The notes under the pieces: model-generated
The model's input: only the letters and a program-made list of their open reading frames with translations
Database searches by the model: none
What the model was told of the DNA's origin: nothing
Part shown: one piece after another, positions 4,103-47,471 of the stretch
How the letters are laid out: every line of letters starts with the position of its first letter
How positions within the stretch are numbered: the stretch's first letter is position 1
Position numbers and translations under genes: made by a program
Assembly: GCF_030552475.1 (NCBI RefSeq)
Contig: NZ_JAUPED010000021.1
Coordinates: 1 to 47,471 of the forward strand
DNA: 47,471 bases
Reading direction: 5' to 3'
Source: Mariniflexile sp. AS56
Lineage (GTDB): Bacteria > Bacteroidota > Bacteroidia > Flavobacteriales > Flavobacteriaceae

Positions 4103-4186
4103 GGGCGTTACCACAAGGGTCGGGCTTTTCGCTATATCTTTTTTGCTTTTAATGGCAAAAAAGGATGCCGCTACAATCCCTAACGC
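4103..4186. repeat. Dispersed repeat R1, copy a (trpE-trpG gap)
   Basis: This 84-base element starts GGGCGTTACCACAAGGGTC and ends CAATCCCTAACGC. The ends carry GCGTTA and TAACGC as inverted repeats. The middle differs between copies and here holds its own hairpin (TTTTTTGC with GCAAAAAA). Two more copies with the same conserved ends lie at 8780-8857 and 46948-47041. It encodes no protein. Confidence 0.85.
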
Positions 4187-4243
4187 AAATAAGACCTCAC
4201 AGGTTTTTAAAATATTTGAGGTTTCAAAAACAAAAACAACAAA

Positions 4244-5889: not shown

Positions 5890-5971
5890 CGTCATTACGA
5901 GGAGGAAACGACGAAGTAATCTCATCAATAGGGACAGATTGCTTCGACTTAAAAAAAGTCTCGCAATGACG
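5890..5971. repeat. Palindromic repeat R2, copy a (trpD-trpC gap)
   Basis: This 82-base element starts CGTCATTACGAG and ends CTCGCAATGACG, 12-base terminal inverted repeats with one mismatch. Inner parts GACGAAGTAATCT and AGATTGCTTCG are also nearly complementary, so the whole element can fold into one long hairpin. It fills most of the gap between trpD and trpC. Confidence 0.88.
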
Positions 5972-6770: not shown

Positions 6771-6826
6771 CGTGATTACGAGGAAGAAACAAATATAGCT
6801 TCGACTTAAAATATCTCGCAATAACG
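6771..6826. repeat. Palindromic repeat R2, copy b (trpC-trpF gap), shortened
   Basis: A 56-base copy starts CGTGATTACGAGGA and ends ATCTCGCAATAACG. The ends match copy a with a few changes and the centre is shorter. It starts in the same relation to the stop codon as copy a does after trpD: both begin one base after TAA. Confidence 0.78.
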
Positions 6827-6840
6827 GTAAATAAAAGACC

Positions 6841-7533
6841 ATGAAACTAAAAGTCTGCGGAATGAAATATCAAGACAACATAGAACAAGTTGCAGCTTTG
6901 CAACCAGACTATCTTGGCTTTATATTTTACGACAAATCTGCAAGAAGTTTTGATTCTAAAAACATGCCCGATTTACCAAAATCAATAAAAAAAACAGGCG
7001 TTTTTGTTAATGAAGATTTGGATACTGTTATTGAAAAAATAAATACCCACCAACTCCAAGCTGTACAACTTCATGGCGAAGAATCTCCTGAATATTGTTT
7101 AGAATTGAAACGTCATTACCAGGAGAAAAACAACAAAGTAATTGCTTCAAAAAAAACAGATGGTTTTGAGTTAGAAATCATCAAAGTGTTTTCCATTAAA
7201 AACGAATTCAACTTTAATGTTTTAAAACCCTATGAAGCGGTCTGTGATTATTTCCTATTCGATACCAAAGGGCAGTTACCTGGCGGCAACGGTTTCACCT
7301 TCAATTGGGATGTATTAAGCCATTACCCTTCAACCAAACCCTTCTTTTTAAGCGGTGGCATTGGTGTTGATGAAATAGAAAATTTAAAACAATTTCAACA
7401 AAGTAAAGCTTCAAAATATTGTTATGCTATTGATGTTAATAGCAAATTTGAAATAGAAGCTGGATTAAAGAATATAGATTTATTAAGAAATTTTAAAGAC
7501 ACCGTCATTACGAAAGAGGAACAACTAAAGTAA
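6841..7533 (+). CDS. trpF: Phosphoribosylanthranilate isomerase with repeat-derived segments
   Basis: The enzyme converts phosphoribosylanthranilate to the 1-deoxyribulose form. MKLKVCGMK has the catalytic cysteine at residue 6. The catalytic aspartate is in FDTKGQLPGGNG, and PFFLSGGIG is the phosphate site. At 230 residues it is longer than the roughly 205-215 I expect. The extra length falls at residues 91-109, whose codons start with a recognisable R2 repeat (7111-7148), and at the last nine codons (7504-7530), which are the left arm of another R2 copy. Active-site residues lie outside both segments, so the gene is probably functional. Confidence 0.93.
   Translation: MKLKVCGMKYQDNIEQVAALQPDYLGFIFYDKSARSFDSKNMPDLPKSIKKTGVFVNEDLDTVIEKINTHQLQAVQLHGEESPEYCLELKRHYQEKNNKVIASKKTDGFELEIIKVFSIKNEFNFNVLKPYEAVCDYFLFDTKGQLPGGNGFTFNWDVLSHYPSTKPFFLSGGIGVDEIENLKQFQQSKASKYCYAIDVNSKFEIEAGLKNIDLLRNFKDTVITKEEQLK
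7111..7148 (+). repeat. Palindromic repeat R2, partial copy inside trpF
   Basis: Bases CGTCATTACCAGGAG onward follow the left arm of copy a (CGTCATTACGAGGAG) with few changes as far as AAAGTAA. They then join directly to TTGCTTC and an A-run, as in the right half of copy a, with the centre deleted. The element is read in frame as residues 91-103 (RHYQEKNNKVIAS). Confidence 0.72.
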
Positions 7534-7578
7534 TCTTCTTTATAACAAACAAATTGCTTCACCCCGTTCGCAATGACG
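7503..7578. repeat. Palindromic repeat R2, copy d across the trpF stop
   Basis: This 76-base copy runs from CGTCATTACGA to CGCAATGACG, with terminal inverted repeats. Its left part supplies the last nine codons of trpF and the TAA at 7531-7533; the rest fills the gap before trpB. Confidence 0.82.
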
Positions 7579-8779: not shown

Positions 8780-8857
8780 GGGCGTTACCACAAGGGTCGG
8801 GCTTTCGCAAGTCGCTCTCAAAAAGAGGAGCTCCAACAATTGCTCAATCCCTAACGC
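8780..8857. repeat. Dispersed repeat R1, copy b (trpB-trpA gap)
   Basis: This 78-base copy has the same ends as copy a: GGGCGTTACCACAAGGGTC at the left and CAATCCCTAACGC at the right. The centre is unrelated to copy a and holds a short inverted stretch (CTCTCAAAAAGAGGAG). Confidence 0.85.
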
Positions 8858-8911
8858 ACATTCAGATTCTAAGAAAATTATTCGTGAATTAGTGGCAATA
8901 AATATTACAAA

Positions 8912-14794: not shown

Positions 14795-17386
14795 ATGACA
14801 TTAAAAACTACACTAAATCATTGGGCTTTATTAAATCGCCTTTTCTTCAACACTTGCATTTTTACATTCATTATTTTATGTAATTATAATGGGTTTTCTC
14901 AAACCACTTATAATATTACAAGCCCTAGTCAACTTACTGCGGCTTTTTCACTAACACTTGCTCCAGGAGACACGGTTATTTTTGCAGATGGAACTTATAC
15001 TGCAAGTGCAACCATGAGATTTAATGGTGTAGGTACAGCAGCCAATCCTATTACATTGAAGGCGGCTACTCCTGGTGGCGTTAAATTTACCAACGGCCAA
15101 ACATTGAAAATTGGTGGAGAGTATTGTATTATTGATGGTTTTCACTGGAAAGGTGGTAATGGCGCTAGTAATTTTATTGAATTTAGAGACAGCTCTAATT
15201 ACGCTAACAATAGCATCCTTCAAAATTGTGTAGTTGATGGTTTACTCGGCACTAGCACTTCAACAGCGAGTATAAAACATAATTGGGTGGTGCTATACGG
15301 AACTTATAATACTGTAATTAACTGTTCATTTTTGAATAAAATGACCTCAGGAAATATGATTCTAGCTGAATATCAATTCAATGCATCTCCTGATGGCACG
15401 GGTACTCCAAATACACGTTGCGATGTAGTTGGCCATACCATTAGTAATAATTACTTCTATAACTATTCAAAAATTGACTCTAACTTAACTAATTCTGGTG
15501 ATAGTGAAACTATACGTATAGGTACAAGTGAATATCAAAACGTAAATAGTAACGCCATGGTTAGCAACAATTATTTTGTTCAAGCTGATGGTGAAAATGA
15601 AATTATCACAAATAAAAGTAAAGGTAACAGCTATATTAATAACACCTTTAGACGATGTAGAGGTTCTTTAGTGCTTCGTCATGGTTCACACACCACGGTT
15701 GATGGCAATTACTTTTTAGGTGAAGACGTTGATGGTACAGGAGGTATTAGAATTGTGGATAGCTACCAAACCGTTACTAATAATTATATTCAAGATTGTA
15801 TCACTGTTGGCGATAATGCTATATGGAATAACGGTATTACTTTTTTAGGAGGAAACGATAGCAGTGCGGTAGTTTGTACTTCGACAAGCATGTCTAATGG
15901 CTATCAAAAAGTGACAGACCTCAACCTATCTAATAATACAATTGTAAATACCAATGCCCCTTTATTCTTTAATATTAATACAGGTACAACCAAACCTCTT
16001 GGAACCGTTTCTAACAACCTAATTTATTTTGTTGATAGCGATCCAAATACAACTGCCGTTATTACAGGTAATACAACCTCTCCTATACCAATGGGTACAG
16101 CATTAACCTATGCTGCTAATATTTACAAAGGAACCACTTTAGGTGAAACAACTTACCCTGGGTTCTCTTTAGAAGCAGGTATTACCGCAACACAATCTGG
16201 TGAAATTTATACCCTCACAGGTACATCAGGTAAAGGTGCTAATATGAATAGTTACACACCAACAACAGATGCTATGGTTGGTCACGCAATTGGTGCTTGT
16301 TTTGTAGATAATTTAGGTGCTAACATTACTAATGGAGATTGTACTATTGTAATACCTGAAACTTTAGTTGTTGGTACTGTACCAGACTTTACAAACCTTG
16401 CTGGTAGCCAAAATGCTTCAGTGACTGCTAATGTAAGTTGGACTGCGCTATCAAACGATTCTTGGATCACTATTACCCCTACTTCAGGAACTGGTGATGC
16501 CACGGTTTCAGTAACAGTTACTGAGAATACAGGAACAGAAAGTAGAACGGGTACGGTTACTTTTTCACAAAACCCAGGAGGTGATAATATTGTTAGAACT
16601 TTAAATATATCACAAGATGCACCAGCACCACCAGATCCAAGAGATGGTTTAAACCTAATAAACAAGACTGCTGCAGATGCTGCTGTAAGTTATGTTTCTA
16701 ATGAAGAGGTAAATAGTACTAAGTTTAATTATGCCGTAAATAGCTTAGATAAAGATTTTAACACTCAATGGGCTGGAAATGGCGCATTAGATCCTGGAGG
16801 AAGCAACAATGCTATCATAATTTATGATTTAAAAGGCGCTTTTGATTTAGAATTGGTTGATATCGCTACCACCAGCGGAAAAACTTATAATTTACAAATT
16901 TGGGTATCTTCAACTGGTACTGCTGATACTGATTTTTCAAATCCATTTCCTGCTGGAGACCTTGCAAGTAACTCAGATGCATCATTCAAATCTTTTGTGC
17001 TTCCTTCTGCAGCAATCGGAACAAAATATGTTAAAATTATTGGTAATGGGCAAGTTGGAAGTACCAGTAGATTTACAACCTTACATGAAGTAGAATTTTA
17101 TAGCACATCAAACAGCCTTTCAATAGACGATAAAGGTTTAGCGAATCAAATAATCATGTTTCCAAACCCTGCTAAAGATTTTATAACACTTAAAAACATA
17201 AGAAATAATGTGAGTTTAATTCAAGTTTTCAGTCTTGATGGCCGAAAAGTGTTGGAGAAAGCTGTGAAATCTTCCGAATCTGAAATTAAATTAGATGTGT
17301 CATCTATTTCAAATGGTGCGTATCTTTTGAACACTTCAAATGCGGGTGTAACTAAACAATCTAAAATGATTATTGTTTCACATTAA
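14795..17386 (+). CDS. PL6-family (alginate lyase / chondroitinase B-like) secreted lyase with accessory domains
   Basis: The 863-residue protein has a signal peptide (to about residue 36). A right-handed beta-helix lyase domain (about 38-510) follows. NKSKGN (Lys 274) and LVLRHGSHTTVDGNYF (Arg 295) match the catalytic Lys and Arg of PL6 enzymes, with the usual spacing of 21. Next come a BACON-like Ig domain (about 523-608, SWITITPTSGTGDATVSVTV), a discoidin/F5-8-type carbohydrate-binding-like domain (about 615-770) and a Por sorting domain (about 785-863, MFPNPAKDFITL). It should be exported by type IX secretion and cleave alginate or a related uronate polymer. No SusC/SusD pair lies nearby. 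Confidence 0.88.
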   Translation: MTLKTTLNHWALLNRLFFNTCIFTFIILCNYNGFSQTTYNITSPSQLTAAFSLTLAPGDTVIFADGTYTASATMRFNGVGTAANPITLKAATPGGVKFTNGQTLKIGGEYCIIDGFHWKGGNGASNFIEFRDSSNYANNSILQNCVVDGLLGTSTSTASIKHNWVVLYGTYNTVINCSFLNKMTSGNMILAEYQFNASPDGTGTPNTRCDVVGHTISNNYFYNYSKIDSNLTNSGDSETIRIGTSEYQNVNSNAMVSNNYFVQADGENEIITNKSKGNSYINNTFRRCRGSLVLRHGSHTTVDGNYFLGEDVDGTGGIRIVDSYQTVTNNYIQDCITVGDNAIWNNGITFLGGNDSSAVVCTSTSMSNGYQKVTDLNLSNNTIVNTNAPLFFNINTGTTKPLGTVSNNLIYFVDSDPNTTAVITGNTTSPIPMGTALTYAANIYKGTTLGETTYPGFSLEAGITATQSGEIYTLTGTSGKGANMNSYTPTTDAMVGHAIGACFVDNLGANITNGDCTIVIPETLVVGTVPDFTNLAGSQNASVTANVSWTALSNDSWITITPTSGTGDATVSVTVTENTGTESRTGTVTFSQNPGGDNIVRTLNISQDAPAPPDPRDGLNLINKTAADAAVSYVSNEEVNSTKFNYAVNSLDKDFNTQWAGNGALDPGGSNNAIIIYDLKGAFDLELVDIATTSGKTYNLQIWVSSTGTADTDFSNPFPAGDLASNSDASFKSFVLPSAAIGTKYVKIIGNGQVGSTSRFTTLHEVEFYSTSNSLSIDDKGLANQIIMFPNPAKDFITLKNIRNNVSLIQVFSLDGRKVLEKAVKSSESEIKLDVSSISNGAYLLNTSNAGVTKQSKMIIVSH

Positions 17387-17404: not shown

Positions 17405-17460
17405 AAAAGTTTCATTTTATTTAAATATGATATCTTCGTATTAAATAAAATGAAACTTTT
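17405..17460 (+). terminator. 20-bp stem terminator abutting trmL
   Basis: Arms 17405-17424 and 17441-17460 are perfect complements (AAAAGTTTCATTTTATTTAA) around a 16-base loop, followed by three more T and then the trmL ATG at 17464. It should end the lyase transcript. The loop contains TATCTTCG, close to a -7 box, which could serve trmL. Confidence 0.8.
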
Positions 17461-47072: not shown

Positions 47073-47471
47073 CGTTATAACGAAGCACGAAGCCATCTCA
47101 TCATATTTATTCAAAATATAATATTAACTCAAAATAAACAGATTGCTTCAGTCGTGCCTCCTTCACAATGACCTGAAGTTTGACACGCAACGTCATGGCG
47201 AGGCACGAAGCCATCTCATGATATTCCGTTCAAAATAAATAAGCAACTCAAAATAAATAGATTGCTTCATTCGTACCTCCTTCGCAATGACCTGAAGTTC
47301 GATGCGCAACGTCATGGCGAGGCACGAAGCCATCTCATGATATTCAGTTCAAAGTAAATAAGCAACTCAAAATAAACAGATTGCTTCAGTCGTGCCTCCT
47401 TCGCAATGACCTGAAGTTCGATGCGCAACGTCATGGCGAGGCACGAAGCCATCTCATGATATTCAGTTCAA
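47073..47471. repeat. 119-bp tandem array of R2-like palindromic units (continues past the window)
   Basis: Units begin at 47073 (diverged, 118 bases), 47191, 47310 and 47429. The last three start CGTCATGGCGAGGCACGAAG and repeat every 119 bases. Each unit has a second part (TTGCTTCAGTCGTGCCTCCTT then GCAATGAC) that is nearly complementary to its start, so it can fold into a long hairpin. The termini relate to R2 in the trp operon (CGTCATT-GAGG and GCAATGACG). The fourth unit is cut by the window end. No start codon frame is credible. Confidence 0.88.

Follow-up and report, generated by a model that had tools for sequence, protein, structure and literature searches.

In-frame palindromes of several families in one loop of the tryptophan enzyme TrpF in Mariniflexile and other Flavobacteriaceae

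Palindromic elements lying inside genes of Rickettsia—the Rickettsia palindromic elements, or RPE—were reportedly described by Ogata in 2000 and 2002. In the accessible parts of two sources, these elements form several palindrome families that stand in frame in metabolic and other genes, so that proteins normal in other respects gain peptides; RPE-4 and RPE-6 are CGTC-tagged (PMC10969869, PMC3733652). The accessible part of one of these sources describes CGTC-tagged REPs as head-to-head pairs that have no dedicated transposase and are mostly intergenic near gene 3′ ends and sometimes give codons or stop codons; it also places intragenic copies in several phyla, many of them in repair genes, records different REPs at about one recB site in two Xanthomonas species and suggests flexible linkers or loops as harmless sites (PMC3733652). 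The enterobacterial RU-1 to RU-3 are, in the portion of their source available, small repeats that look mobile and whose open frames are fused into annotated genes (PMC2759123). In-gene palindromes are already known, from Rickettsia and from other bacteria.

Here, we analysed a stretch of 47,471 nucleotides (the window) from a Mariniflexile genome that we label G000. It contains a trp operon arranged as E, G, D, C, F, B, A (genes named by inference from their Pfam domains together with their order), with copies of a palindromic repeat, R2, between and within its genes (Table 1). The nearest relatives of its TrpF, among the named matches listed, belong to Flavobacteriaceae such as Algibacter, Flavivirga and Winogradskyella. 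No earlier description of palindromes in TrpF was found in a search of titles and abstract beginnings, with subscription literature mostly outside its reach; new, as far as the literature was searched, are the host group, the use of sites in TrpF, Mfd and GHMP kinase, and how extensively one loop is occupied by unrelated palindromes.

Table 1 Location of the window, of trpF and of the R2 copies in the trp operon.
Feature	Position	Strand	Evidence
Window: Mariniflexile sp. AS56, assembly GCF_030552475.1, contig NZ_JAUPED010000021.1	1–47,471	+	
trpF, phosphoribosylanthranilate isomerase, 230 aa	6841–7533	+	ORF and translation; Pfam PRAI PF00697, E 8.4e-32; predicted fold nearest solved TrpF structures
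In-frame R2 remnant in trpF, residues 91–109 (RHYQEKNNKVIASKKTDGF)	7111–7167	+	Alignment to complete in-gene R2 of G002, G004 and G005 and to the intergenic copy at 5890–5971
Complete R2, trpD–trpC gap, 1 base past trpD stop	5890–5971	+	77.9 bits; RNA fold z −4.95
Shortened R2, trpC–trpF gap, 1 base past trpC stop	6771–6827	+	35.2 bits
R2 spanning the end of trpF and running on into the trpF–trpB gap	7503–7578	+	Model R1, 64.0 bits; repeat family D1

The original prediction had likened the trpF insert to RPE, and the likeness stands for behaviour, in that palindromes lie in frame inside genes; sequence membership forms no part of it. Measured against the accessible parts of the RPE papers, insertion is likewise in frame and into conserved genes, here those for TrpF, Mfd and GHMP kinase, whereas the hosts are free-living Flavobacteriaceae rather than obligate intracellular Rickettsia, the sequences presumably differ and one enzyme loop takes unrelated families across many genera, a common landing loop not being described for RPE in those parts. 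As far as the available text on CGTC-tagged REPs extends, R2 resembles them in lying mostly between genes and near gene 3′ ends, where it can furnish codons or a stop codon, in being intragenic in a repair gene (Mfd is the repair factor here), in starting, when complete, with CGTC and ending with GACG (near-consensus in a 15-copy alignment) and in having halves of the form CGTC-ATTRC...GYAAT set head to head, the stem opening, on inspection, with two positions of complementary AT. Unlike those REPs as that text gives them, with a stem of 8–9 bp, a loop of 4–5 bases and an unpaired tail that is mostly CCA, single R2 halves fold with ATTRC/GYAAT ends of about 5 bp or in other pairings, and have CT plus variable bases after GYAAT. 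Because these stem, loop and tail sizes do not agree, we describe R2 as CGTC-like and do not count it among the CGTC-tagged REPs. The recB case in the same text concerns two species, whereas one TrpF loop is filled by several families in dozens of sampled species. RU-1 to RU-3 are longer, are other elements and occupy other hosts, and the accessible part of their source does not describe a common landing site (PMC2759123).

The stretch at 7111–7148 (CGTCATTACCAGGAGAAAAACAACAAAGTAATTGCTTC) lies in frame within trpF and gives a local score of 20 against the complete R2 of the trpD–trpC gap. Among 301 other operon windows of 82 bases the highest score is 12, and among 830 other windows of 38 bases from the operon, compared with R2, it is 11. 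Allowing up to three mismatches, the R2 start pattern occurs at three places in the window (the one in trpF with three mismatches) and at none in 100 shuffles. A profile of 15 other R2 copies scores the trpF insert at 25.5 bits, with an E value of 0.0042 in the window and 0.42 genome-wide; taken alone, this copy is a weak R2 match. Its RNA folds no better than shuffles (z −0.19 and −0.96). Over 7111–7167, the insert is identical to that of a same-genus genome, G004, at 46 of 57 bases, and its 3′ arm is about ten codons shorter than those of its relatives.

What identifies the stretch as a real R2 is the presence of complete R2 elements at the same trpF codons in the same-genus genomes G002, G004 and G005, where they encode RHYEERND...KKSRND; the element in G004 extends from CGTCATTACGAGGAG to TCTCGCAATGAC and shows 90% identity to the window's trpD–trpC copy over 89 aligned bases. 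Alignment with these complete in-gene elements assigns residues 91–109 to R2. The original prediction of an R2 fragment encoding residues 91–103, with further copies in the neighbouring trp gaps and a frame that stays open, is thereby borne out and widened, and sequence comparison confirms the stretch as a decayed, 3′-truncated R2 palindrome read in frame. Within the genus, trpF holds R2 in G000, G002, G004 and G005, a second family (RHAEL type, below) in G001 and a composite in G003. The length of the segment at 91–109 in relatives had been proposed as a check on chance similarity: the loop segment is longer in all five same-genus relatives (36–43 aa against 33), yet three of these carry complete R2 and two other palindromes, so the R2 likeness is not due to chance.

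The R2 copy that spans the end of trpF codes for the final ten residues of TrpF (TVITKEEQLK) and the stop codon, and recurs in eight relatives, 25–52 bases from the gene end and in identical phase. In several relatives (L040, L041, L044 and others), trpF and trpB form one fused reading frame, with TrpF frames of 606–646 aa. A second repeat (GGGCGTTACCACAAGGGTCGGGCTTT..., with CCCTAACGC at its end) lies at 4103–4187 and 8780–8862, directly after trpE and trpB. Elsewhere in the window, a perfect inverted repeat with arms of 20 bases set 16 bases apart (17405–17460), directly after a long reading frame (14795–17386), is perhaps a terminator. R2-like tandem copies spaced about 119 or 187 bases apart occupy contig ends, at 47073–47471 of the window and on contigs C1, C26, C30, C34 and C45 of the same genome, where the arrays probably broke the assembly.

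We compared the loop segment, defined as the residues between QLHG and the IIKVFSI strand, in 110 TrpF sequences: 80 from named loci and 30 from a genome search (60 genomes, 43 with a match, 30 loci used). Forty-four further loci (L198–L241) were left out of every rate because 20 were chosen chiefly for the length of their TrpF spans and several duplicate species among the 110; L213, wrongly parsed (137 aa), was ignored. The segment is 12–73 residues long (median 24), with a short loop of about 16 aa in several other genera, for example KESPEYCITLKSQNIE in L072. Besides R2, the loop holds a family with the element GCTGAACTTGTTTCAG / CATGCTGAACTTGTTTCAGCATCTCA, read as RHAELVSASH (the RHAEL type), another with TTTCGAGCGCAGTCGAGAA, read as FRAQSRN and in its other arm as EVSTPLDLT, and, in some relatives, rarer palindromes. 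Partial or nested R2 occurs in L061, L062, L063, L089, L097 and others, and some loops hold two palindromes: the FRAQSRN type lies within R2 in L062 and L229, R2 is followed by the RHAEL type in L063, and a CGAGCGGAGTCGAG palindrome is followed by R2 in L089. A recognised motif is present in 37 of the 70 segments of at least 22 residues and in none of the 40 shorter ones; the other 33 long segments lack one. The family assigned to decayed inserts such as L070 and L084 is doubtful. From family to family the entry point shifts by a few codons, a spread that suits tolerance better than a single exact target.

These inserts are repeats in their own genomes. The G004 insert has 8 matches in G000, 5 in G002, 4 in G003, 19 in G004 and 7 in G005, trpF copies included, and none in the remaining one of the six genus genomes, G001, whose trpF holds another family. 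When ten inserts of other kinds or species were searched against their own genomes, at least eight had further copies (a single partial one in G008), whereas those of L097 and L117 had none among the matches listed. Of six matches to the RHAEL-type element in G000, one is strong and falls within a GHMP kinase gene, and the other five have E values of at least 0.27; one of the weak matches (E 0.5; L321, contig C49 of G000, 173348–173370) lies at the end of a 351-residue frame (…KPRPHAELV, stop) and is possibly a palindrome-made C terminus, judging from the translation. Genes for Y1_Tnp occur in five of the six genus genomes; no Y1 transposase was found in G004, the genome with most R2 matches. 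Across the 110 loci, motif density is 4.54/kb in the TrpF loop (40 matches), 0.124/kb in the rest of trpF (8 matches, all of them the C-terminal R2 near the gene end), 0.002/kb in other genes (1 match in 465.5 kb) and 0.80/kb in noncoding DNA (75 matches), a comparison that is partly circular because the motif families were chosen by eye from TrpF inserts, and in which palindromes may count twice via both arms or strands.

A search of the window's genome for other in-gene R2 copies, which had been proposed as a check, found none: of 22 dispersed R2 places, none lies inside an ORF of at least 120 aa. When 23 places were compared with frames running from stop to stop over 90 aa or more, frames touched L001, L004, L006, L007, L018, L021, L022, L026 and L027; only L026 and L027, matches of 17 and 19 bases with E values of 2–4, lay wholly inside a long frame. 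Among 20 R2 regions of G002–G005, chosen from the match list of the G004 insert, 14 overlap no ORF of at least 120 aa, three just touch a frame, one forms the C terminus of a frame (presumably ThiF/MoeB-like, by its appearance) and two lie wholly inside a long frame, in the genes for the transcription-repair coupling factor Mfd (G004; L246) and a GYDIA family GHMP kinase (G005). The predicted capacity of R2 to yield protein sequence thus extends, in frame, to two further genes. At the Mfd site, R2 was found in G004 and G005 by motif scan and in G002 by eye, a TCGAGCACAGTCGAGA palindrome (TCGAG type) in G003 by eye and RHAEL-type elements in G011 and G012 by motif scan, with only a short loop in G000 and G001; across 22 Mfd frames, the motif matches, which pass the scan in G004, G005, G011 and G012, fall at that one site only. 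At the GHMP kinase site (L292–L298), G003 and G005 carry half an R2, and the genomes G000, G001 and G011 carry half of a RHAEL-type element; in L298, the RHAEL type is matched again near codon 172. From these translations, one Mfd site and one GYDIA GHMP kinase site act like the TrpF loop, taking different palindromes in frame across genera.

The loops that join a helix to the next strand in this barrel fold face away from the active site, and the active-site residues of TrpF presumably lie outside the insert. The predicted structure of the window's TrpF (mean pLDDT 89.5) has solved TrpF structures as its nearest match and, as had been anticipated for a loop, places the insert between α3 and β4. 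Helix α3 is predicted to extend to residue 102, taking in the first part of the insert, strand β4 to begin at 112, and residues 103–106 fall below a pLDDT of 50. In L097, which has a complete R2, the insert is also predicted with low confidence (block means 49–64). The insert is thus predicted to form a longer helix α3 and a disordered stretch.

A quick tree of 110 rows was built from TrpF without its loop and TrpB, 26 of its 107 inner branches being starred. The starred branches force at least nine changes of the RHAEL label, four of R2 and two of the FRAQSRN type, and all ten labels together require 47 changes against 59.6 in shuffles; each change may be either a gain or a loss, and inserts of mixed type carried separate labels. 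Eight R2 inserts of equal length differ by a pS of 0.238 and a pN of 0.198 (pN/pS 0.83), whereas in the same comparison the rest of TrpF is under strong constraint (pS 0.61, pN 0.136, pN/pS 0.22). Silent and replacement differences are nearly even in the inserts, and the peptide therefore seems to be under little selection. Plain neutral decay of an old insert does not account for silent divergence this low (0.24, compared with 0.61): either these copies are recent, or they undergo exchange with others, or constraint acts on their DNA. For constraint through base pairing we found no support in the R2 inserts, where one of 19 pairs shows a double change.

We consider it highly probable that palindrome families spread through these genomes and persist in the tolerant TrpF loop where the frame stays open, later to decay, shrink, or be overwritten or joined by others. 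Multicopy palindromes with CGTC or TGTC ends—R2 and at least two further families without visible likeness beyond those ends—would spread through Flavobacteriaceae genomes, presumably landing anywhere, with selection following. Copies entering the α3–β4 loop in open frame would survive, we propose because this loop, which faces away from the active site, can accommodate additional residues, and copies elsewhere in most genes would be purged. The insert would extend helix α3 and add a disordered stretch to a longer enzyme that would be made and would work; it would then mutate, shrink in multiples of three bases, or be overwritten or joined by another palindrome, probably by insertion rather than by conversion between palindromes.

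Inheritance from a single ancient insertion, since diverged into apparent families, would suit a site that many genera have in common and R2 inserts of exactly equal length in eight species, and the 90% identity between the trpD–trpC copy and the G004 in-gene copy suggests that some operon R2 may be old. Such descent is nevertheless improbable for the loop as a whole, as the inserts match different repeat families present in many copies in the respective genomes, G001 has no R2 match and carries another family, labels switch repeatedly across the tree and the silent divergence of R2 inserts is well under that of the flanking gene; it is possible for part of the R2 clade. Retention as RNA hairpins in the trp messenger, serving stability, processing or coupling with coding as a by-product, draws on this same low silent divergence, on the R2-like and other repeats in the window's trp gaps and on 34 of 106 loop segments that fold better than codon shuffles (z < −2). 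Here too the probability is low: among control windows from these genes, 11 of 101 also reach z < −2, which leaves a real but modest excess, only one of the 19 pairs has a double change and the covariation term is unfavourable, the window's own copy folds no better than shuffles and many species have a short loop.

That the loop is filled in many genera with the frame always kept might instead mean that selection favoured the peptides for giving TrpF a new function, for example a surface for binding or regulation. We regard this as very improbable, since a working enzyme needs an intact frame anyway, the peptides are unrelated between families, the pN/pS within R2 inserts is 0.83 and most of the insert is disordered in prediction. 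An ordinary loop resembling R2 by chance would agree with the weak genome-wide score of the window's copy, but scores far over the controls and the lack of matches in shuffles reduce its probability almost to nil, and it was rejected on the complete R2 elements of G002, G004 and G005. More speculatively, and at rather less than even odds, the loops of TrpF (α3–β4), Mfd and GHMP kinase may be standing exchange sites at which an old palindrome draws the next and unrelated ones replace it or nest within it with the frame kept; if so, they would give a free-living bacterial family a steady supply of new protein loops.

On our preferred reading of spread, tolerance and decay, repeat DNA seems, from sequence comparison, to have been turned into protein again and again in the TrpF loop. 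The best-known cases of palindromes translated into protein come from Rickettsia; this loop of a well-studied enzyme appears to record many arrivals of different palindromes, from complete to faded, in free-living bacteria. It would allow measurement of the passage from repeat DNA to protein, of the speed of decay and of whether one palindrome replaces another, in an enzyme for which both assay and selection are simple.
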